Below the pieces are notes generated by a model. That model was given only the letters and a program-made list of their open reading frames with translations. It was not told the DNA's origin and did not search any database. A stretch of 31,114 bases of DNA from positions 1-31,114 of the IMG/VR virus record IMGVR_UViG_3300026116_000078. One strand, written 5' to 3'. The position numbers were made by a program, and so were the translations under genes. This document shows, piece by piece, positions 1-26,638 of the stretch. The first letter of the stretch is position 1. Every line of letters begins with the position of its first letter. The stretch comes from a virus.

Positions 1-438
1 CTGCCAGTTGCACCGGTTGACATTACCGGCGGAGTTACCGGGCAGGCCTTTGCCCTGAAAGACTATCAGCACGCTTCGATCGTGGTTCCCATTGGAGTCT
101 CGGCGGCAGCGTTCACAAAGATCATCGTGAATCAATGCACCGATTCGTCCGGTTCAAATCCGGTCGCAATCGCGTTCAACATTTACAAGCAGGAAACCGC
201 CGGCGTCTCTCATGATGTTTTGGGCGCTCGCACGGCAGTAACCTCGGCTGGCTACACGCCTTCGGCGAATGACGGGATCTTCTACGTCATCGAACTGGAT
301 GCGAGTGAACTAGCCGATGGCTCGCCTTATGTTCAGGTGCAGCTGACCAACGGAACGAATAGCGTGATTGCGGCAGTCATCGCGCTGCTCTCCGGGCCTC
401 GTTATGCTGGCGTCTCAAGCGTAACTGCTACCGCTTAA
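1..438 (+). CDS. Phage structural protein, 3' part (5' end outside window)
   Basis: The reading frame is open from base 1 to the stop at 436-438, so the gene begins upstream. A GTG at 82 lies inside the continuous frame and is probably not the start. The visible 145 residues are rich in Val, Ala, Ser, Thr and Gly, with an alternating beta-strand pattern and no membrane segment or catalytic motif. This fits a small capsid-associated or decoration protein. Its position before the fibre genes and the head-tail connector supports a virion role. It is followed by a strong intrinsic terminator, so it probably ends a highly expressed structural transcript. The exact family is not recognised. Confidence 0.7.
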   Translation: MPVAPVDITGGVTGQAFALKDYQHASIVVPIGVSAAAFTKIIVNQCTDSSGSNPVAIAFNIYKQETAGVSHDVLGARTAVTSAGYTPSANDGIFYVIELDASELADGSPYVQVQLTNGTNSVIAAVIALLSGPRYAGVSSVTATA

Positions 439-1604: not shown

Positions 1605-2111
1605 ATGCAGGACTCGCGCCCATTCTTTTCCGGAAACGGATCGCCCGAAGGTCAAGTTACCGCGCCAGCCGGCGCCTTCTATCTCGATGCTTCGACGGGA
1701 ACGTTCTATCACAAGGCGCAAGGCTCGGCTGCAACAGGCTGGACGGCGATCAACCTCACTGGAAACGTTACGGGCAATGCGGATACTTCAACCCTCGCAA
1801 GCGGGCTTAAAGACACTTGCACCGCAGCTTCTGGAGACGGCGCAATCTCAGTAAAAACCGGTACCGTTGCAATTACAAAAGGTTCAGCGGCTGCATTGAC
1901 TTTGGCCGCGCCGACAGCAACCACAGACGACGGTAAGGTTCTCACCATTATCGGGACAACCGCCTTCGCGCACACGGTCACAACTCCATCGAACAAATTG
2001 AACGGCAACAAAACGACTGTGACCTATGCGGCGGCTGGGGATTCAATCACGGTGGAGGCTTATCAGGGAGTCTGGTATTCGCGCGCGTTGAAAGGCGCTC
2101 TCATCAGCTAA
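1605..2111 (+). CDS. Short structural/fibre protein sharing the upstream N-terminal module
   Basis: The ATG at 1605 follows an AAGGAG ribosome site at 1591-1596. Residues 1-50 closely repeat the N-terminal module of the collagen-like fibre (GSPEG, FYLD, YHKAQGSAATGW), implying attachment to the same virion partner. Residues about 60-168 are low-charge, Thr/Ala/Gly-rich beta structure with a TVEAYQGVWYS ending typical of small phage fibre or knob domains. No enzyme motif is seen. The pair looks like a tandem duplication of the anchor module with different distal parts. A role as head fibre or tail-side decoration cannot be decided from sequence. Confidence 0.75.
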   Translation: MQDSRPFFSGNGSPEGQVTAPAGAFYLDASTGTFYHKAQGSAATGWTAINLTGNVTGNADTSTLASGLKDTCTAASGDGAISVKTGTVAITKGSAAALTLAAPTATTDDGKVLTIIGTTAFAHTVTTPSNKLNGNKTTVTYAAAGDSITVEAYQGVWYSRALKGALIS

Positions 2112-2145
2112 TTTTTGGCTCCAACTTCTGGAAAGGAGTTGGGAC

Positions 2146-2214
2146 TTGCCAGAGCGGAATGCTGACTTTATGGAGCCAGCATTTCAGTCCGGCACATTCA
2201 ATGAATCGGCATAA
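2146..2214 (+). CDS. Possible 22-residue phage peptide
   Basis: A TTG at 2146 sits 7 bases after an AAGGAG ribosome site and opens a 22-codon frame reading MPERNADFMEPAFQSGTF, then NESA, ending at TAA 2212-2214. The ribosome site points to this frame rather than to the connector frame. Short peptides with AFQ-type motifs occur in other phage structural clusters, but that link is an impression. It overlaps the start of the connector gene, suggesting translational coupling. Alternatively it is a chance frame. Confidence 0.35.
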   Translation: MPERNADFMEPAFQSGTFNESA

Positions 2215-2992
2215 ATTTCATCATCGGCAAGCAATCAAGCTGTGGTATCCCCCGCTCGTCTCGGTCGATTCAGTGACCTACATCGATCAGAATGGGGACC
2301 CGCAGACATTGGTCGAAGGAACTGACTTCCAAGTTGATCCGGAGAGCGAACCGGCGATCATTCAGCCTTTGCCGAATACTCTTTGGCCGATAACCATGCG
2401 CGGAGTTAAAAACGCCGCACAGATCCTGTACACGGCTGGATATGAAGTGGATTCTTCAGAACGCATTAGCGGGGAATCAACCGCGTCGAACGTTACCGAG
2501 CCGGAAGTCTTGACGGTCACCGCGCCTTCGCCGCCGAAACAAGTTTCTAGCTATACGCTTGATCTGACTATCCCCGAAGAACTGGTGTTGGCGATCAAGC
2601 AATTAGTCCTGCACTGGTATCAGAACCGCGACATCATTATTGCCACGCCTGGCGCCGGTGGACAGCATCAGCCTTTGCCGCAGCACATTAATGAACTGCT
2701 TGCGGATTACATGCAGCATGATTTCTCGGCACGTTACTATCCGCGCGAAGTCACGCTCGACGATAGCGCAGATGAACCGGTAACGCTGGCTTCTGCGAAA
2801 CAGTTTTGCCGCGTGACTTCGACCGCCGACGATACCTTTATAACCACGCTGATTCGCGCCGCGCGGCGGCATCTTGAGCGGCAAACTTGGCGCAGCCTAG
2901 TGAAAAAGCAATATTTACAGAGCCTTGATCACTTCCCCGGCCATATCTGGCCAGGAACAGCAATCAGTTTGTACGGGAATGAGTACTACTAA
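2201..2992 (+). CDS. Head-tail connector (gp6-like), halves in permuted order
   Basis: This is a connector of the HK97 gp6-like group, which forms the ring between portal and tail. The start at 2201 is chosen because it overlaps the coupled peptide's stop; an in-frame ATG at 2159 is the alternative. The N-terminal half holds what is normally the second half of the family: LWYPPLVSVDSVTYID, then a helix with LVLHWYQNRD and a PLPQHINELLADY ending. The last 90 residues hold what is normally the first half: EPVTLASAKQFCRVT, DDTFITTLIRAARRHLE and a LDHFPG strand. The order therefore looks circularly permuted, perhaps by tandem duplication and trimming. The overall identity is fairly secure; the permutation is inference. 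Confidence 0.75.
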   Translation: MNRHKFHHRQAIKLWYPPLVSVDSVTYIDQNGDPQTLVEGTDFQVDPESEPAIIQPLPNTLWPITMRGVKNAAQILYTAGYEVDSSERISGESTASNVTEPEVLTVTAPSPPKQVSSYTLDLTIPEELVLAIKQLVLHWYQNRDIIIATPGAGGQHQPLPQHINELLADYMQHDFSARYYPREVTLDDSADEPVTLASAKQFCRVTSTADDTFITTLIRAARRHLERQTWRSLVKKQYLQSLDHFPGHIWPGTAISLYGNEYY

Positions 2993-3013
2993 ACACAACA
3001 GGAGAGAACCAAA

Positions 3014-3367
3014 ATGGCAAATGAAATCACAGTAAGCGCAAGTCTCCATTACTCAAAGAACAAAGCGTCCGCGCAGCTTTCCACAAGCTACTCGGCTACG
3101 CAAACCGGCGACAAATATGAGTCGGGTGTACAGATCATCGGGACTACCGAAGAGAGCCTCGCGAAAAACGATGTTGGAACCATCGGATTTCTCGCCGTCC
3201 GCAACCTCGATACGACTAATTTCGTATCATTCGGCCACACTACAGGCGTCTATGACGTAAAAGTGTTGCCGGGTATGGGCGCAGTCATCCCATGGAACGG
3301 AACTAGCGTTTTCGCAAAAGCGGACACGGCAAACTGCGAAGTTGAATACCTGCTGATAGAAGCCTGA
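3014..3367 (+). CDS. Small phage structural protein, unknown family
   Basis: The 117-residue product starts at an ATG preceded by AGGAGA at 3000-3005, a strong ribosome site. It has an N-terminal MANEITVSASLHYSKN strand, then beta-rich sequence including VRNLDTTNFVSFG and VLPGMGAVIPWNG. This pattern resembles small virion proteins with a beta-sandwich fold, such as decoration or fibre-base proteins. There is no signal peptide or membrane helix. It sits between the connector and head closure genes and is followed by a strong hairpin, so it is probably made in quantity. The family is not recognised. Confidence 0.7.
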   Translation: MANEITVSASLHYSKNKASAQLSTSYSATQTGDKYESGVQIIGTTEESLAKNDVGTIGFLAVRNLDTTNFVSFGHTTGVYDVKVLPGMGAVIPWNGTSVFAKADTANCEVEYLLIEA

Positions 3368-15166: not shown

Positions 15167-17557
15167 ATGAAAAAGACAATCGCTGCTCTCTTCGCATTCG
15201 TGTCTCTCCTAACCTTCGGCCAAACTACGCAGGTCAATCACGGCGGGACTGGCTTAACCTCAACCGCGAACCATGACATTTTGGTCGGAACAGGGCCGGG
15301 AACGTATACGCTTGTGACAGTTCCCGACTGCCAGGACACGAGCGGCAATCATTTAAACTTCACCCAATCGAGCAATAGCGTAACCTGCGGAACAAGCTCC
15401 AGCACTCCAGCATCATCTGTCAGCGTGAACGGTTCGACTGTAACATCGCCAAATTTCAACGACACTACGCCGGCAGCTGCCAGCAACAATGTGAATGTGA
15501 CCTGGCAGCAATCTTCTGGCAATGTGTCCGCTCAAGTAGGTGCTGCAACCTCCTCAGTGCTGGGAGCAGTTAAGGGCGGAACATGCACGAATCAATTTCT
15601 GCGCGGCCACACTTCCGGAACCGGCGCGCAAGTCTGCTCAACCGTCGCGAATACTGATCTGGCAAATTCTGCAACGACGGTCAATGGCATTACGTGCTCA
15701 CTCGGAGGAACCTGCACCGTCGGAGGATCAGGACTGAGCGGAACGAACGTACAGACAGGAAATTACACGCTCACGAGCACCGACAATGCGAAGCTGGTCG
15801 TGATGAACTGCTCGGCAGCTTGCACGGCTACTCTCTATGGCAGCCCGTCATCGGTGTACTTTACTGAAATCATCTCGATCGGCAGCATTCAGGCAGCAAT
15901 TTCTCTCAATAGCAAAACATATAATGGCGGCCCTACTGCCCCGACGCTTAACAACCAGAATCCGCTATTGATCTGGAGCGATGGAACGAACTATTACGGA
16001 AACCCAATCGGGAATGTGACTGATCTTCAAGCACGGCGCGGCGGTCATGGATCATTCGTAACCTGCGCTCAATCCAACAACGTCACTTCTGGAACGGAAT
16101 TGGTGTATTGCTTTACGTCCTATGATGGCCTTACCTGGCAGCAGTTCGGCAATGCCCCAGCAATCTCTCAGGCCGGAACTCGCGACCCATCCATTATTCA
16201 CTATGACGGCAAGTGGTGGATGGCGGTTACATATCCCGCGACTACGAGTTGGCAGCTGTATAGCTCGAGTGATCTGGTCACGTGGACCGGTCCGACCACG
16301 GTGAGCACATCCGGAGTCGCAGGGGTAACGAACACATGGGCGCCGCATTTTTTTATCGATAGCGATAGTACGGTTCACGTCTACGTGACCCTGAGCACCA
16401 ACAGCCTCTCGACGCAGAACATTTACGAGATGCATCCCACCGCCCGGGACATGAGCACGTGGAGCACTCCCTCAATCGTTAGCACGGGTTTCTCTCCAGC
16501 ACACAATATCGACCCTAACGTTGTCAGAGTCGGGACTACGTACTACATGTTTTTTAAAGACGACGATACTGGATTCGGCCACAATGGGCCGATTGACTTA
16601 GCAACTTCAACGTCGGCAACCGGGACGTTCACGATCACTCAAACGGGCAACTGGGCAGGCTGGCAGAATACCTTGGGCCGCATAGAAGCCCCGCAGGTCG
16701 TTCAGATGGACAACGGCAAATGGCGAATCTACTTCGTGAACAACAACAATCTTGATTCTCTGAACGTCTACTATTCCGAGACGACCGATTCCACATTTGC
16801 GACAGGTTGGTCAACGCCGACCGCAATCTCCACTCTGGCGAACTATAACCATCCGGTTCCAATCCGCTCGCCATCGGCAACCGACCTTCTCGACAGTTCA
16901 GGATTTTTGAGCCAAGGCGTTACGCCGACGACGGGAGTCATAGCAGGTAGTTGCGGTGATGCAACACATTCTTGCAGTTTGACCATTGACGCTTTCGGGA
17001 GAGTGACCAATCAAACCAACAATGTCATCAGCGGAGGCGGTAGCGGCGACTATGCTCTACTGGCCACGACGACTACAACTGGTTCGCAATCGTCGGTCAC
17101 GTTTTCGAGTATTTCCTCCAGCTACACCGATTTGGTCGTGAAGATTAGAGGTCGCGGGACCAATGCCGTTACGAATGAGAACGTTCTCGCTCAATTCAAT
17201 TCGGATACAGCGGGGAACTATCAGTTCGAAGATGTTCATTGGTTCAGTACGGCTGGCGCTGCTTCTCAGTCAACCGGGCAGACTTCCATAATCGTTGGGC
17301 TTATTCCTGGGAGTTCCGCGACTGCCAACTACTCCGGAACTGCTCAGATGACAATCGGACTTTACTCGACAACTACTTTCTATAAGCAAACCGTGTCCAC
17401 TTGTGGCGTGACACTTGGGACGGGAACATTCAGCGTAGGAGCCTGTTTATATAGCGGTGCGTGGGCAAACACGGCAGCCATAAACGCTGTGAAAATATTT
17501 GTAGCGAGCGGAGGGTTTGTGGACGGCACAATTATCAGCATCTACGGCGTCAAGTGA
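15167..17557 (+). CDS. Tail fibre with GH43-type glycosidase domain and signal peptide
   Basis: The 796-residue protein starts with a classical signal peptide (MKKTIAALFAFVSLLTFGQ), odd for a virion protein. Residues 20-290 are fibre-like Gly/Thr/Ser repeats (HGGTGLTS). Residues about 290-590 form a five-bladed-propeller-like GH43/GH117 domain. The expected triad is present: D340 in TRDPSII, D449 in NIDPNVV and E507 in IEAPQVV, with spacing of 109 and 58 residues, as in arabinanases. The last 170 residues (YTDLVVKIRGRG, then GTIISIYGVK) are a common receptor-binding tip. It likely cleaves an arabinan- or xylan-like surface glycan. Its 3' end overlaps the minus-strand desaturase gene by 16 bases. 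Confidence 0.85.
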   Translation: MKKTIAALFAFVSLLTFGQTTQVNHGGTGLTSTANHDILVGTGPGTYTLVTVPDCQDTSGNHLNFTQSSNSVTCGTSSSTPASSVSVNGSTVTSPNFNDTTPAAASNNVNVTWQQSSGNVSAQVGAATSSVLGAVKGGTCTNQFLRGHTSGTGAQVCSTVANTDLANSATTVNGITCSLGGTCTVGGSGLSGTNVQTGNYTLTSTDNAKLVVMNCSAACTATLYGSPSSVYFTEIISIGSIQAAISLNSKTYNGGPTAPTLNNQNPLLIWSDGTNYYGNPIGNVTDLQARRGGHGSFVTCAQSNNVTSGTELVYCFTSYDGLTWQQFGNAPAISQAGTRDPSIIHYDGKWWMAVTYPATTSWQLYSSSDLVTWTGPTTVSTSGVAGVTNTWAPHFFIDSDSTVHVYVTLSTNSLSTQNIYEMHPTARDMSTWSTPSIVSTGFSPAHNIDPNVVRVGTTYYMFFKDDDTGFGHNGPIDLATSTSATGTFTITQTGNWAGWQNTLGRIEAPQVVQMDNGKWRIYFVNNNNLDSLNVYYSETTDSTFATGWSTPTAISTLANYNHPVPIRSPSATDLLDSSGFLSQGVTPTTGVIAGSCGDATHSCSLTIDAFGRVTNQTNNVISGGGSGDYALLATTTTTGSQSSVTFSSISSSYTDLVVKIRGRGTNAVTNENVLAQFNSDTAGNYQFEDVHWFSTAGAASQSTGQTSIIVGLIPGSSATANYSGTAQMTIGLYSTTTFYKQTVSTCGVTLGTGTFSVGACLYSGAWANTAAINAVKIFVASGGFVDGTIISIYGVK

Positions 17558-18393
17558 GTCAGCATCATAATTGCCCACCGTTGGAATGGATAGAAGAATG
17601 CTTTCGCGGCGGAATCTATTTTATCTGAGCCATCAGCCAGACCAGTGGGAATCAGCTTAGCGCTGCGATCTGGGGCATGGTAAGTTCCGAAAAGCACATC
17701 CCACATTGGAAAGAAGGCTGCGAAATTCTTGTCTAAATGCTCAGGCAATTTCGAGTGGTGGATTCGGTGAACACTTGGATTGGTGATAAATCGATTCAAC
17801 GGGCCGAGACTCATCGTGGAATTCAGATGAATCATATCTCCATAGAACTGCGTCAGCAGGTAGGCCGAGAGCGCTGTCATGGTCGGCGGCTTCAGCAATA
17901 GGATGAGTGGCCCTGCGACAAAAGCCGCATCAATAAAGGCTTCCAGCCAATGATGCCGAAACGACGTTGTTACCCCCATGTGCTCATCGGAATGATGCAC
18001 CGCGTGTTCCGCCCAAAGCCAAGGCCAAGCGTGTTGTGCCCGATGAACCCAATAGAAAACGAAATCGTGAAGGACAAGGAATATGGCGGCAACGCCTAAT
18101 CCCGCTAGCCACTGTCCGTGATCTGAAATCGCCGATAGGTCAAACAAATGGAAATTGTTGCTCAGCCGTGACATCCCTGCGGTGATTGCAGAACCGAGCG
18201 TGATTCTAAGAGCGAAATAAAGCACAGTCAAAAAACAATTAATCGATAGATTCTTCGGCGTATTCGATTCGCTGGCTGGAGACATTCCTTCGATCACAAA
18301 GCAAATCAGGTAGGCGATAGTCGTTTGAAGGATCAGAAACCCAAAGGCCGCAACGGTCATTGATGGTGCGTTAAATAGTGATGTGTTAATCAT
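17542..18393 (-). CDS. Sterol desaturase / fatty acid hydroxylase family membrane enzyme
   Basis: The ATG at 18393 gives a 283-residue integral membrane protein; the open frame extends to 18591 but overlaps the upstream gene. It has about four hydrophobic segments and the histidine clusters of the di-iron fatty acid hydroxylase superfamily: HDFVFYWVHRAQH, HAVHHSDEH and VHRIHHS, followed by the FGTYH ending. Members oxidise lipid or sterol-like substrates using oxygen; the substrate here is unknown. It is the last gene of a coupled minus-strand operon, 2 bases after the preceding stop, and overlaps the fibre gene tail-to-tail. A host-lipid-modifying conversion gene is the likely role. Confidence 0.87.
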   Translation of the reverse strand: MINTSLFNAPSMTVAAFGFLILQTTIAYLICFVIEGMSPASESNTPKNLSINCFLTVLYFALRITLGSAITAGMSRLSNNFHLFDLSAISDHGQWLAGLGVAAIFLVLHDFVFYWVHRAQHAWPWLWAEHAVHHSDEHMGVTTSFRHHWLEAFIDAAFVAGPLILLLKPPTMTALSAYLLTQFYGDMIHLNSTMSLGPLNRFITNPSVHRIHHSKLPEHLDKNFAAFFPMWDVLFGTYHAPDRSAKLIPTGLADGSDKIDSAAKAFFYPFQRWAIMMLTHLTP

Positions 18394-18395
18394 TC

Positions 18396-18626
18396 TTATT
18401 CTAGGGTCCACAAGGTCACCCGTTCCCCGCAAGGAAGGTCGGCAACTTCTTGCATTGTGGAGCCGTTCGATTCGAGTCTGACTTTCAGTTGCGGATTGAT
18501 CACAGCGCGAGTTGCGGCCAGCTTCCACATCTCCGCAGATGTGTATCTCTGGTAAGCGAGAATAGCAAGCCCAGCGCAGACGAGCAGCCAAAAGAAGCGT
18601 TCAGGCGGTAGGAGTTTTTTCAGCAT
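18396..18626 (-). CDS. Small membrane-anchored protein, 76 residues
   Basis: The ATG at 18626 is preceded by GGGGAG with a spacing of 5 bases. A single hydrophobic helix lies at residues 10-24 (RFFWLLVCAGLAILAYQ), followed by a soluble tail with ATRAVINPQLKVRLESNG. The family is not recognised. Its stop is 2 bases before the desaturase start and its start is 1 base after the preceding 41-residue gene, so all are probably translated together. The tail is most likely periplasmic or cytoplasmic depending on topology, which cannot be decided. Confidence 0.68.
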   Translation of the reverse strand: MLKKLLPPERFFWLLVCAGLAILAYQRYTSAEMWKLAATRAVINPQLKVRLESNGSTMQEVADLPCGERVTLWTLE

Positions 18627-20177: not shown

Positions 20178-21257
20178 GTGTTCAACAATCAGGGGTCGAA
20201 AGTAAGTACATTGGCGGCTGCAATTATGTCGGTAGCCGCGCTTACATCATTGCCTTTCCAGGAAGCTTGCGACCAGTGGCTAGAAACCCGTAGACATCAC
20301 ATTTCCGCAAAAACCTTCCACGAATACGAGCTAAACATCGATACGCTCGGGAAGTTTTTCGGGGAAATGCGGCTAACCGAAATCGATGCCGACATGATCC
20401 GGCGCTATCAGCGGATGCGGATGACGAAGTGCGGCCCGCATTCGATCAACCATGAGTGCTCGGTTCTACAGCAGGTGCTTAAGCGCATCGGGCGCTGGGC
20501 GGAAATAGGCCAGGACTATCAGCCTCTACCCCTGCCCAAGACGAAGCGCGGGCGGGCCATCACCCCGGAGGAGCGGGAGAAGCTCTGGCGCATTATGCGG
20601 TCGAATCCCAATTGGGATGCTGCCCGGCTCTGCGCTACCATCTGCATCAATTCGACGGCCAGTCCCGGGGAAGCCTACAAGCTCAAGCACCATGACGTGG
20701 ACATGAAGGCAATGAAGTTCATCGTCGGGCGGAACAGCAATGCCAAGACTGACGAGCGCTACCGGCGAATCCCGATGAATGATGAAAGCTTCGAAGCCTT
20801 CCGCGAAACAATCGCGCGCGCCAAGATCCTAGGGTCCTATAAGCCAGAGCACTACATCTTCCCGTTTTGGTGCTTTGGGCGCGAATACGATCCCGACAAA
20901 CATCAAACTACCTTCCGCACAGCTTGGGAGAAAATCATCGCGCAGGCGGTAAAGAGTGGGCTGAATGTCGAGGGCCTCAGGCTCGAGGACATGCGCCACA
21001 CGGCAAAAACCCTGCTCCTTGAAAGCGGCGAAGTCTCTGGCGAAGTTGCCAACGAGATCGCAGGCCACATTGACGATTCCATGAATCGGTTTTACTCGCA
21101 CATTGGCCAGCAGGCGAAACAAAAGGCGGTCGATTGCCTCTCGTCTACCCCCAAGAAACCAGTTCTCCCCGAGAAATCCACAGTCGGGCCAGTGGATAAC
21201 CGGGAATTGGCGCAAGCGCTAATCGCTCTAGCGGCGAAACTCCTTAATTCTGCGTAG
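20178..21257 (+). CDS. int: Tyrosine-type integrase, Arg I and box II His replaced
   Basis: The 359-residue product has a SAM-like core-binding domain (FQEACDQWLETRR to IRRYQRMR, residues about 27-95) and a catalytic domain. Visible active-site positions are R273 in the EDMRHT box, H297 in AGHIDD and Y306 in RFYSHIG. The first arginine of the usual TGxRxGE motif is serine here (S162 in TASPGEAY), and the HxxR histidine is glutamate. The GTG start at 20178 follows AGGGG; an ATG at 20226 is possible. It should integrate or excise the phage. The altered residues make full activity uncertain. Confidence 0.9.
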   Translation: MFNNQGSKVSTLAAAIMSVAALTSLPFQEACDQWLETRRHHISAKTFHEYELNIDTLGKFFGEMRLTEIDADMIRRYQRMRMTKCGPHSINHECSVLQQVLKRIGRWAEIGQDYQPLPLPKTKRGRAITPEEREKLWRIMRSNPNWDAARLCATICINSTASPGEAYKLKHHDVDMKAMKFIVGRNSNAKTDERYRRIPMNDESFEAFRETIARAKILGSYKPEHYIFPFWCFGREYDPDKHQTTFRTAWEKIIAQAVKSGLNVEGLRLEDMRHTAKTLLLESGEVSGEVANEIAGHIDDSMNRFYSHIGQQAKQKAVDCLSSTPKKPVLPEKSTVGPVDNRELAQALIALAAKLLNSA

Positions 21258-21291: not shown

Positions 21292-21321
21292 TTGACATCT
21301 AAACTTAGACTCACTTATGCT
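21292..21321 (+). promoter_or_regulatory. Strong sigma70-type promoter
   Basis: TTGACA at 21292-21297 is followed after 17-18 bases by TTATGC/TATGCT at 21315-21321. The start of transcription would be near 21328, only about 4 bases before the ATG at 21332, so the first message may be nearly leaderless. Confidence 0.75.
21298..21309. promoter_or_regulatory. Palindrome inside the promoter spacer, candidate operator
   Basis: TCTAA-AC-TTAGA forms a 12-base near-palindrome between the -35 and -10 boxes. A dimeric repressor bound here would block RNA polymerase. The adjacent gene encodes a small ribbon-helix-helix-like protein, so autoregulation is plausible. Confidence 0.45.
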
Positions 21322-21331
21322 CACACCCGTA

Positions 21332-21499
21332 ATGGCAAAGAAGAAAGCAATTCGCAACATGACTTGGACTCCGAACCTTGAAGATCGCAGGCTCATGGAA
21401 GAGCTAAAAGCCCAGATCGGCTTGAGGGCTGATTCCGAGTTGATGCGGATGGGGCTTAGGGCTCTCGCCGAAAAACAGGGCAGAGCAACTAACGGGTAA
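21332..21499 (+). CDS. Ribbon-helix-helix-like small DNA-binding protein
   Basis: The start at 21332 is preferred because the upstream in-frame ATG at 21317 falls within the promoter -10 box. The 55-residue protein has a basic N-terminus (MAKKKAIRNM), a short strand (TWTPN) and two helices (EDRRLMEELKAQIG, then SELMRMGLRALAEKQ), the layout of Arc/CopG-type dimers. It probably acts as a repressor or an excision-control factor for the neighbouring integrase. It has a promoter of its own with a palindrome in it. No close family could be named. Confidence 0.65.
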   Translation: MAKKKAIRNMTWTPNLEDRRLMEELKAQIGLRADSELMRMGLRALAEKQGRATNG

Positions 21500-21546: not shown

Positions 21547-21648
21547 CGACGACCGAACGATTTTAGGGGCGCGTAGCTCAACTGGCAGAGCAACTGACTC
21601 TTAATCAGTTGGGGCGGAACTTAAGTTAGTCCCTAAATCCGGTCGTCG
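21547..21648 (+). ncRNA. tRNA-Lys(CUU)-like half cloverleaf in a long outer helix
   Basis: From 21567 the sequence is tRNA-Lys-like: GGGCGCG, TA, a D arm GCTC/GAGC with AACTGGCA loop (21576-21591), and an anticodon arm ACTGA-CTCTTAA-TCAGT (21593-21609) with anticodon CTT. A normal T arm and 3' acceptor strand are missing. Instead, 5' flank 21547-21570 pairs with 21629-21648: nine bp (CGACGACCG with CGGTCGTCG), then about eleven bp (GATTTTAGGGGC with GTCCCTAAATC) with one bulged T and a 3-base bulge. It is not a standard tRNA gene. It may be a tRNA mimic, an attachment-site remnant or a control element for the gene starting at 21653. Confidence 0.5.
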
Positions 21649-21652
21649 CTAA

Positions 21653-22114
21653 ATGGCGACGATGCGGGAACTTATCCAAGACGAGTCGGGCCTTCGCGAC
21701 TTCAAGGGCTTTACCAAATGGTGGTCGGCGGTTTCCTTCGCTGCCGTCTGCATGGCTCTCATCATTGGTGCGGCGATCTACAGCCAATCAAAAGAGGCCG
21801 TTTATTCAAATCCTGCTGGCGTGTTCCAGATCGTCAAGCGCTATGACGCCTATCACTACAAGTTCAACCAAATAGGCGTCGGCGAAATGGCCGTGACGTT
21901 CTGTCCCAATTACGAGCCACAGCTTTCAGCAGGTCAGACAATTTGGTGGATCCACTACATCGATAAAGGGAAGTGCTGGGACATCCAGCCCAACGGCTTC
22001 GGCTACAGACTTATTCGCGATGCATCCGGGAAGCCAACCTTGGCCCCGCCGTGCTTTGTAAATGACCAAGATGTGACCGAGTGCAAACCAAACAAAATGG
22101 AAGCGAGGTTCTAA
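21653..22114 (+). CDS. Single-pass membrane protein, first gene of the early operon
   Basis: The 153-residue product has one transmembrane helix at about residues 25-45 (AVSFAAVCMALIIGAAIY) after a charged N-terminal segment. The rest is a soluble domain with four cysteines (TFCPNYEP, KGKCWDIQ, APPCFVN and ECKPN) that could form disulfides outside the membrane. No ribosome site is visible; an ATG at 21662 is an alternative. The start lies 5 bases after the long helix described at 21547-21648, so RNA folding may control it. Unknown function; exclusion or envelope roles are possible. Confidence 0.65.
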   Translation: MATMRELIQDESGLRDFKGFTKWWSAVSFAAVCMALIIGAAIYSQSKEAVYSNPAGVFQIVKRYDAYHYKFNQIGVGEMAVTFCPNYEPQLSAGQTIWWIHYIDKGKCWDIQPNGFGYRLIRDASGKPTLAPPCFVNDQDVTECKPNKMEARF

Positions 22115-24750: not shown

Positions 24751-24983
24751 GAGTCCATCTTCTCGATTCCGACGCACCGCTCAAATCCGGCGAGAACTAC
24801 AAAGCCAACTGCGGCGCTGACATTTCCAAGGCTGAGTTTGCTTTCATGTTCGACGCCGATTATGGGCAGGACTACTCGGTTTCATCTCTTCTGTGCTGCA
24901 GGTCATGCAGGACAACGAGATTAGCGAAGCGTTATCTGTACGGCGTGGTTTCAGGCCAAGAGACGAAATGGGCAGCGGCGTGA
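24747..24983 (+). CDS. Cysteine-rich small protein
   Basis: A GGAGGGAGGAAG site precedes a TTG start that overlaps the exonuclease stop (TTGA). The 78-residue product has an acidic N-terminal half (HLLDSDAPLKSGENYKANCG) and a C-terminal SLLCCRSCRTTRLAKRYLYG cluster that may bind a metal. It ends at 24983, overlapping the GTG chosen for the ATPase. No family is recognised. Confidence 0.6.
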   Translation: MRVHLLDSDAPLKSGENYKANCGADISKAEFAFMFDADYGQDYSVSSLLCCRSCRTTRLAKRYLYGVVSGQETKWAAA

Positions 24984-26638
24984 GCAAGATCGTCATTGGC
25001 GAAGCGAGCGGAAGGAACGCAAGTATTGATCTCGACGTCCTGCTTCGCACTCGCCTGCTAATTCAGGCCAATTCGGGCAAAGGTAAATCGTGGCTGCTTC
25101 GCCGTTTGGCCGAACAGTTATTCGGTAAAGTTCAGGTGCTCATCATTGATCCCGAAGGCGAGTTCGCAACCCTACGCGAGAAATTGGACTTTGTTCTCGT
25201 AGGAAAGGGCGGCGAGACGGCGGCGCATCCGAGAATCGCAGCGATGACAGCACAGCGCTTGCTTGAGCTTCGCGCCTGTGCAGTGTGCGACTTGTACGAA
25301 ATGAAGCCCTCCGAGCGTCACGCGTACGTTAGGGCATTTCTCGAAGCGCTGATCGACGCGCCTAAGAATCTTTGGCATCCCTTGGTCGTGATCGTGGATG
25401 AGGCACATGTGTATTGCCCGGAGAAGGGCGCTGGAGAATCGGAAGCATCTGAGGCCGTTATCGGGATGGCAACTCGCGGGCGCAAGCGCGGATACTGCCT
25501 GGTAGCAGCAACCCAGAGGCTCGGGAAGTTTCGCAAGGATGCCGCATCGGAATTGTTGAACGTTGGTATCGGTGGAACTTTCATCGACATCGATCGCAAG
25601 CGCGCCGCTGACGCGCTCGGCGTTTACGGGCAGGACGTGCATCCGTTCTTTGATGAGATTCGTCTGCTTGAGCGCGGGAAATTCTATTTTCTTGGACCGG
25701 CGATTTCCACCGAAAGAATTCTCGTCAGCATTGGCGAAGTACAGACGACGCATCCCGAAGCTGGCAGTGCGCGCCACGCCGCCGAACCTCCCCCGACTCC
25801 GCAAAAGATAAAGGCTCTTTTACCTAGCCTTGCTGATCTCCCGAAAGAGGCCGAAGAGAAGGCCCGCAATATCGCTGATCTGCAGAAGCAGGTTCGCGAA
25901 TTGAAATCGGAATTATCGAAGCGCCCGACCGAAGTAAAGAGGATTGTCGAAGAAAAGATTGTGGAAGTTCCTGTGCTTCGGCCTGATCAGATTCAGGAAC
26001 TGTCAAACATCGCGACGCAGATCAAAGGCGTCGGGGAGATCATCGCGACTGCCTTAGCTTCGGTTCGTAAAGCGCCCGCGGTATCTCCGCTCCGTCCCGT
26101 TCGCAACACAGTTCAGCCAATCAGCAAGGCGAAGCAAATAGTCAAATCGAACGTCGAAAGCGATGGAACTCTTTCGAAGGGCGAGAAGGCTGTGCTCACG
26201 GCCATCGCGCAGGATGGAAGCGGAGTTGATCGTAATCAACTGACGGTGCTCACTGGGTACAAGCGTTCCACGCGTGATGCGTATCTCCAGCGCCTAGCGA
26301 CTAAGGGATTCATTCACGAAAACGGGACTGGCATAAATCCTACAGAAGAGGGATTGCAGGCTTTGGGCGATGATTACGAGCCTCTACCGACCGGTAAAGA
26401 ATTGCGTGATTACTGGATGGAAAGGCTTCCCGAAGGTGAGCGAAAAATCCTCGAGTTTTTAGTTGCCGCATGGCCAGAGCCAGTTCAGCGCGATCTAATT
26501 TCTGATCAAACCGGATATGCCCGGTCCAGCCGTGACGCCTATTTGCAGCGCCTCGCTTCTCGCCGGTTGGTTGATACGTCTGGGCGAGCAGAAGTCGTTG
26601 CATCGCACATGCTTTTCGATGATGGAGTTTCAGCGTGA
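24980..26638 (+). CDS. HerA-like hexameric ATPase with tandem winged helices
   Basis: GTG 24980 overlaps the upstream TGA and is preferred over in-frame starts at 24893, 24905 and 24968. Walker A is NSGKGKS (K36) and Walker B is VIVDEAH (D140, E141); an ATRGRKRGYCLVAATQR block resembles the HerA/FtsK sensor and arginine finger. Residues about 285-340 form a coiled coil. The C-terminus has two repeated winged-helix units, each ending RDAYLQRLA. HerA ATPases translocate DNA and often work with nucleases. Following ERF and YqaJ, it may drive end resection or packaging-like transport; a defence-type role is an alternative. Confidence 0.8.
   Translation: MSKIVIGEASGRNASIDLDVLLRTRLLIQANSGKGKSWLLRRLAEQLFGKVQVLIIDPEGEFATLREKLDFVLVGKGGETAAHPRIAAMTAQRLLELRACAVCDLYEMKPSERHAYVRAFLEALIDAPKNLWHPLVVIVDEAHVYCPEKGAGESEASEAVIGMATRGRKRGYCLVAATQRLGKFRKDAASELLNVGIGGTFIDIDRKRAADALGVYGQDVHPFFDEIRLLERGKFYFLGPAISTERILVSIGEVQTTHPEAGSARHAAEPPPTPQKIKALLPSLADLPKEAEEKARNIADLQKQVRELKSELSKRPTEVKRIVEEKIVEVPVLRPDQIQELSNIATQIKGVGEIIATALASVRKAPAVSPLRPVRNTVQPISKAKQIVKSNVESDGTLSKGEKAVLTAIAQDGSGVDRNQLTVLTGYKRSTRDAYLQRLATKGFIHENGTGINPTEEGLQALGDDYEPLPTGKELRDYWMERLPEGERKILEFLVAAWPEPVQRDLISDQTGYARSSRDAYLQRLASRRLVDTSGRAEVVASHMLFDDGVSA

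Follow-up and report, generated by a model that had tools for sequence, protein, structure and literature searches.

A tRNA-Lys(CUU) 5′ half downstream of a tyrosine integrase gene is very probably a phage attachment site, here enclosed by a 20-bp inverted repeat

The element at positions 21547-21648 of an IMG/VR virus record (IMGVR_UViG_3300026116_000078; the whole 31-kb stretch analysed, 31,114 nt, is referred to as the window) is very probably an attP that serves the tyrosine integrase encoded beside it, one of the rarer attachment sites in which the phage copy covers the 5′ half of the target tRNA gene. In the window, tail genes lie to the left, the integrase gene occupies positions 20178-21257, and the recombination genes ERF and YqaJ, together with a gene for a HerA-like ATPase, lie to the right. 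The integrase, a plus-strand product of 359 aa, has a PF00589 match (E=1.7e-12), a SAM-like N-terminal domain and a match to the PHROG integrase family (E=1.2e-38). Its gene ends 309 nt upstream of the tRNA half, which is on the same strand, and the enzyme most likely acts on the attP identity block at 21567-21612.

That the window contains a tRNA 5′ half is beyond doubt. Positions 21567-21612 (plus strand) correspond to nt 1-46 of tRNA-Lys(CUU) and are identical at 45 of 46 positions to the whole tRNA-Lys located at the ends of two proviruses described below. Agreement is complete over nt 1-43 (43/43) and extends to two of the three positions at nt 44-46, the sole mismatch being nt 44; after nt 42 the window half reads TTGG where the provirus tRNA reads TAGG. 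The half comprises the acceptor 5′ strand GGGCGCG, U8A9, the D stem GCTC/GAGC, the anticodon stem ACTGA/TCAGT and the loop CTCTTAA, which presents CUU. Inspection of the 21547-21648 element revealed neither the CGCGCCC partner of the acceptor strand nor a T arm 3′ of the half. A complete phage tRNA gene was considered and rejected: ARAGORN called 0 tRNA genes in the window, with no complete cloverleaf bearing a T arm and 3′ acceptor, and the Rfam tRNA model scored 26.9 bits on the half, under its cut-off of 29. These results uphold an earlier sequence-only reading of this DNA, which had described a tRNA-Lys 5′ half with a CUU anticodon that lacks the T arm and 3′ acceptor and is not a standard tRNA. 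The missing parts are accounted for by the attP reading, since a 5′-half attP is without them by design.

Halves of tRNA-Lys(CUU) were sought in IMG/VR with a pattern scan for the 5′ half, which returned 8 loci, and with a second, more degenerate pattern, which returned 22; most of the loci were whole tRNAs, and halves were present in four contigs. Two contigs are, by their sequence organisation, integrated proviruses, each delimited on one side by an orphan 5′ half and on the other by a complete tRNA-Lys(CUU). In IMGVR_UViG_3300035673_000078 (44,818 bp), the whole tRNA-Lys is found at 215-290 (minus strand) and the orphan 5′ half at 44518-44565 (minus strand); half and tRNA agree over nt 1-45 and diverge thereafter. 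In minus-strand orientation, host DNA is followed by the orphan half, the provirus, its integrase, the whole tRNA and host DNA again. The integrase is a homologue of the window integrase (29% identical, E about 1e-31 to 1e-35), has the same orientation, with 237 nt separating its end from the tRNA downstream. Provirus and window have the same target tRNA and homologous integrases, each encoded upstream of a tRNA-Lys 5′ half and in its direction; the provirus differs in being integrated and in having a reconstructed attP without the inverted repeat considered below. The second provirus, IMGVR_UViG_3300005529_000026 (94,356 bp), contains a tRNA-Lys at 43-118 (minus strand) that is identical to that of the first at 76 of 76 nt, and an orphan half at 94229-94277 (minus strand) with another tyrosine integrase beside it. 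This orphan half was missed by the first pattern, probably owing to a mismatch like that at nt 44. The middle of the same genome (L052), a provirus already in tRNA-Lys, also holds a 29-nt 3′ piece that is 86% similar to tRNA-Lys (61663-61691, minus strand).

Two further contigs extend these observations. In L059 a tRNA-Lys(CUU) half lies 83 nt from the contig end, and in L061 a free, attP-like 5′ half lies inside the contig at 1596-1644, as in the window, directly adjoining an unrelated tyrosine integrase (1642-2799, minus strand), which suggests that the 5′-half design has been adopted more than once. When aligned, all of the identity blocks begin at tRNA nt 1 and stop between nt 41 and nt 48, just beyond the anticodon loop. 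Counted against the attP reading is L027, which encodes a homologous integrase and has no recognisable tRNA half near it, implying that only part of the integrase family uses the tRNA-Lys target. No lysogen of the window phage itself was found: the exact 46-mer (with TTGG at its end) was absent from a collection of 84,980 genomes, probably because this query spanned nt 44, which differs from the provirus tRNA. As a probe sequence for such a lysogen we give GGGCGCGTAGCTCAACTGGCAGAGCAACTGACTCTTAATCA. Neither the integrase nor the ORF at 21653 nor the exact element had close relatives in the searches made.

Identity ends just past the anticodon loop, from which we infer that the crossover probably occurs within this loop (CTCTTAA, 21598-21604, plus strand), the probable 7-bp overlap region, which is flanked by the inverted core ACTGA/TCAGT. 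The integrase would act on the anticodon-loop region in both partners, attP and the host tRNA-Lys(CUU) gene, and recombine them there, and phage nt 1 to ~43 would take the place of the displaced host 5′ half. One prophage end would carry an intact tRNA-Lys transcribed from a phage promoter, and the other would carry the host's own tRNA promoter with an orphan 5′ half, the ORF at 21653 then standing downstream of the host tRNA promoter in the lysogen. When the window P arm and half were joined in silico to the host 3′ part, ARAGORN called a tRNA-Lys(ctt). The features of a 5′-type tDNA attP are found here: a tyrosine integrase nearby, an identity block that begins at nt 1 and spans the crossover (with the provirus tRNA as reference), a joint that restores the whole tRNA, and flanks consisting of an orphan half and a whole tRNA in two relatives, one of which has a homologous integrase. 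An attP containing tRNA identity, which had earlier been listed as an alternative to an RNA function, is thus strongly supported by the adjoining integrase, the match at 43 of 43 nt and the orphan-half/whole-tRNA signature of two proviruses; use of the block as attP with the host tRNA-Lys, the outcome that the same reading had set against its RNA proposal, is essentially what these comparisons indicate. Comparison of the window with 3300035673_000078 yielded 8-9-mers common to their attP arms but no convincing integrase arm sites.

If the phage provides the 5′ end of the tRNA, a promoter is required between the integrase gene and the half. A promoter-like sequence, TTGACA-18-TATGCT, is located 3′ of the integrase gene at 21292-21321 (plus strand) and matches the consensus at 10 of 12 positions; the consensus scan returned 2 sites against 0.3 expected, and comparable TTGACA sites were recognised by eye at the same location in L027 and L033. 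It is a candidate for driving transcription of a small ORF and also, once the phage is a prophage, of the restored tRNA-Lys. The small ORF (21317-21499, plus strand; 60 aa, or 55 aa from a second ATG at 21332) lies between the integrase gene and attP and has a homologue 3′ of the related integrase in L027 (36% over 53 aa). This 55-60-aa product, which is conserved at this position in two phages, is possibly a small DNA-binding or excision factor.

Several observations concern the wider neighbourhood and other phage contigs. The HerA-like ATPase gene (24893-26638) has relatives in 26 viral contigs at 44-75% identity; its best PHROG match is to the terminase large subunit (E=1.2e-15), and its role may lie in packaging or in recombination. 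In one phage contig (L020, 13408-21032, and also L019), 33 ARAGORN tRNA genes of many isotypes are found downstream of a HerA-like gene. ARAGORN also identified a tRNA-Lys(ttt) at 2995-3067 of Corynebacterium phage phi16 (L030, KY250482.1) that is unannotated in the GenBank record, and nine tRNAs without annotation are present in L031 (OQ183418.1 region). Between the tail genes and the integrase gene of the window, on the opposite strand, is a fatty-acid hydroxylase/sterol-desaturase gene (17542-18591, minus strand; PF04116, E=2.8e-30), the best plasmid homologues of which are in Proteobacteria and are about 30-37% identical.

As an attP with a 5′ tRNA half, the element is ordinary in kind and uncommon in form. 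The Islander survey recorded 159 of 3919 islands with a 5′ tDNA fragment compared with 3760 with a 3′ fragment (PMC4383910). The 5′-tDNA sites of its anticodon-centred type A resemble the window in that a tRNA 5′ fragment is carried in the element beside a tyrosine integrase, identity stops just past the anticodon loop and insertion restores the gene (PMC4383910). Unlike those islands, the window shows an unintegrated attP, with a 20-bp inverted repeat that is missing from three other attP sites examined. Archaeal integrases of the pTN3-like group target the tRNA 5′ half, with the tRNA expressed from the integrase promoter, an arrangement seldom seen in bacteria (PMC8371274). Comparison of the att arrangements shows that they share with the window an attB formed by the 5′ half of the tRNA gene and a restored tRNA read from an element promoter, whereas the window belongs to a bacterial-type tailed phage and would use a separate P-arm promoter. 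Actinobacteriophages of the K4 and L clusters, which show tRNA-dependent lysogeny, also have a tyrosine integrase that targets a tRNA-Lys gene, but they have only about 10 bp in common with attB and carry a whole tRNA (PMC10865867), whereas the window has 43 nt and no whole tRNA.

The attP reading leaves the 20-bp inverted repeat unexplained, and this is counted against it. The repeat forms a helix, or clamp, that closes around the tRNA half. RNAfold pairs the left arm, CGACGACCG-AAC-GATTT-T-AGGGGC (21547-21570, plus strand; the P side, the last 4 nt being tRNA nt 1-4), with the right arm, GTCCCTAAATCCGGTCGTCG (21629-21648, plus strand; the P′ side). The pairing of the flanks over nine plus eleven bp, as first proposed from the letters, is borne out and resolves into 9+5+6 = 20 bp, in which 21547-21555, 21559-21563 and 21565-21570 pair with the unbroken segment 21629-21648, with 3 nt and 1 nt bulged out of the 5′ strand; the six innermost pairs involve tRNA nt 1-4. 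The fold of the whole element has a z of -3.3. By complement alignment the clamp scores 13.0, a value that no shuffle out of 3000 and no window placement of the same geometry out of 3431 attained. With 60-nt arms, 2/400 and 1/1500 shuffles were as good. By RNAduplex energy alone the clamp is less special, since 76 of 5000 shuffles (1.5%) and 357 of 6156 window placements (5.8%) did as well. The clamp is therefore probably not due to chance, though it is not extreme on every measure.

When the arms of the three other attP sites were joined, no comparable helix was found: their complement scores were 9.8 (26/400 shuffles as good), 8.8 (169/400) and 6.0 (1485/1500), compared with 13.3 for the window, and the sequence of the right clamp arm is not conserved in them. 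Among the attP sites compared, the inverted repeat around the half is thus peculiar to the window phage. Within the window, CGACGACCG has no mismatch-free second copy. Taken from its outermost pair, the dyad is centred at 21597.5, about 3 bp (2-4 bp) away from the middle of the anticodon loop at 21601, a position that would suit paired protein-binding sites around the crossover.

One explanation of the clamp, akin to the translational control of the gene at 21653 that the sequence-only reading had also listed, adds an RNA role to the attP function and is not exclusive of it: in a transcript from the free phage the clamp would fold and affect translation of the ORF at 21653, and integration would part the arms and relieve the effect. 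We consider this unlikely. The clamp lies above nearly all shuffles, and its arms are necessarily apart in the prophage. It ends 4 nt before the ATG of the ORF in question, a 153-aa frame from the open-reading-frame list (21653-22114, plus strand). A hairpin seen by eye at 21642-21663, TCGTCGC-TAAATG-GCGACGA, places this ATG in its loop; because it takes in part of the right clamp arm, hairpin and clamp are mutually exclusive and would compete. Against these points, the clamp is present in none of the relatives examined, and the ORF has no match in Pfam, PHROG or phage records. Slightly less probable still is the fuller proposal that attP doubles as an integration-state-sensing RNA, in which the clamp would form only in the unintegrated genome, sequestering the tRNA half together with the region where the ORF starts, until integration separates the arms. 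If this were true, integration would yield a working tRNA-Lys at one end and bring the ORF downstream of the host tRNA promoter at the opposite end.

The sequence-only reading had favoured an anticodon mimic or decoy for a PrrC-type nuclease. In such a model the 20-bp helix would hold the transcript and show a tRNA-Lys anticodon arm to PrrC, RloC or another anticodon nuclease, and the host tRNA-Lys would be spared. The CUU anticodon-arm sequence is intact, the closing helix is stable, and phage tRNAs that counter tRNA-cleaving defences have been described (PMC10264068, PMC11555353). However, the clamped RNA is predicted to form neither a D nor an anticodon arm: pair probabilities, computed for unmodified RNA, are about 0.002 for the D stem and about 0.018 for the anticodon stem, and forcing both arms costs a predicted 4.4 kcal/mol, whereas the same folding method returns a cloverleaf for the provirus tRNA. 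The helix does not, therefore, obviously present the anticodon. Moreover, three other 5′-half attP sites are without a clamp, the same half is found as att remnants at provirus ends, and a decoy has no need of an integrase as neighbour. With its arms not predicted, its clamp absent from the other sites examined and its missing parts fitting an attP, the decoy proposal is unsupported and very improbable. Equally doubtful is a decayed phage tRNA-Lys gene without attachment function: the element is indeed a tRNA 5′ half within a phage genome, but the half is mismatch-free over 43 nt, its 3′ counterpart is abruptly gone and the provirus halves break at the same place. The bacterial Y RNAs of the YrlA type, which combine a long closing helix with a Ro60/Rsr-binding tRNA-like domain, retain the T and D arms and replace the anticodon stem, the reverse of the window element. 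A YrlA identity is the least credible of these readings and was rejected: its match to Rfam RF02553 reaches 23.8 bits, far under the gathering score of 69, and lies on the minus strand, whereas the tRNA half is on the plus strand. No Rsr-type gene was seen in a scan of the larger proteins of the window.

The attP reading carries implications beyond this phage. A 5′-half attP at tRNA-Lys(CUU) recurs with at least three different integrases, namely that shared as homologues by the window and 3300035673, that of 3300005529 and that of L061. The reading predicts that the tRNA-Lys of the lysogen would depend on a phage promoter. It also advises caution: where a tRNA half adjoins an integrase, an att site is the possibility to examine before any RNA function is put forward.
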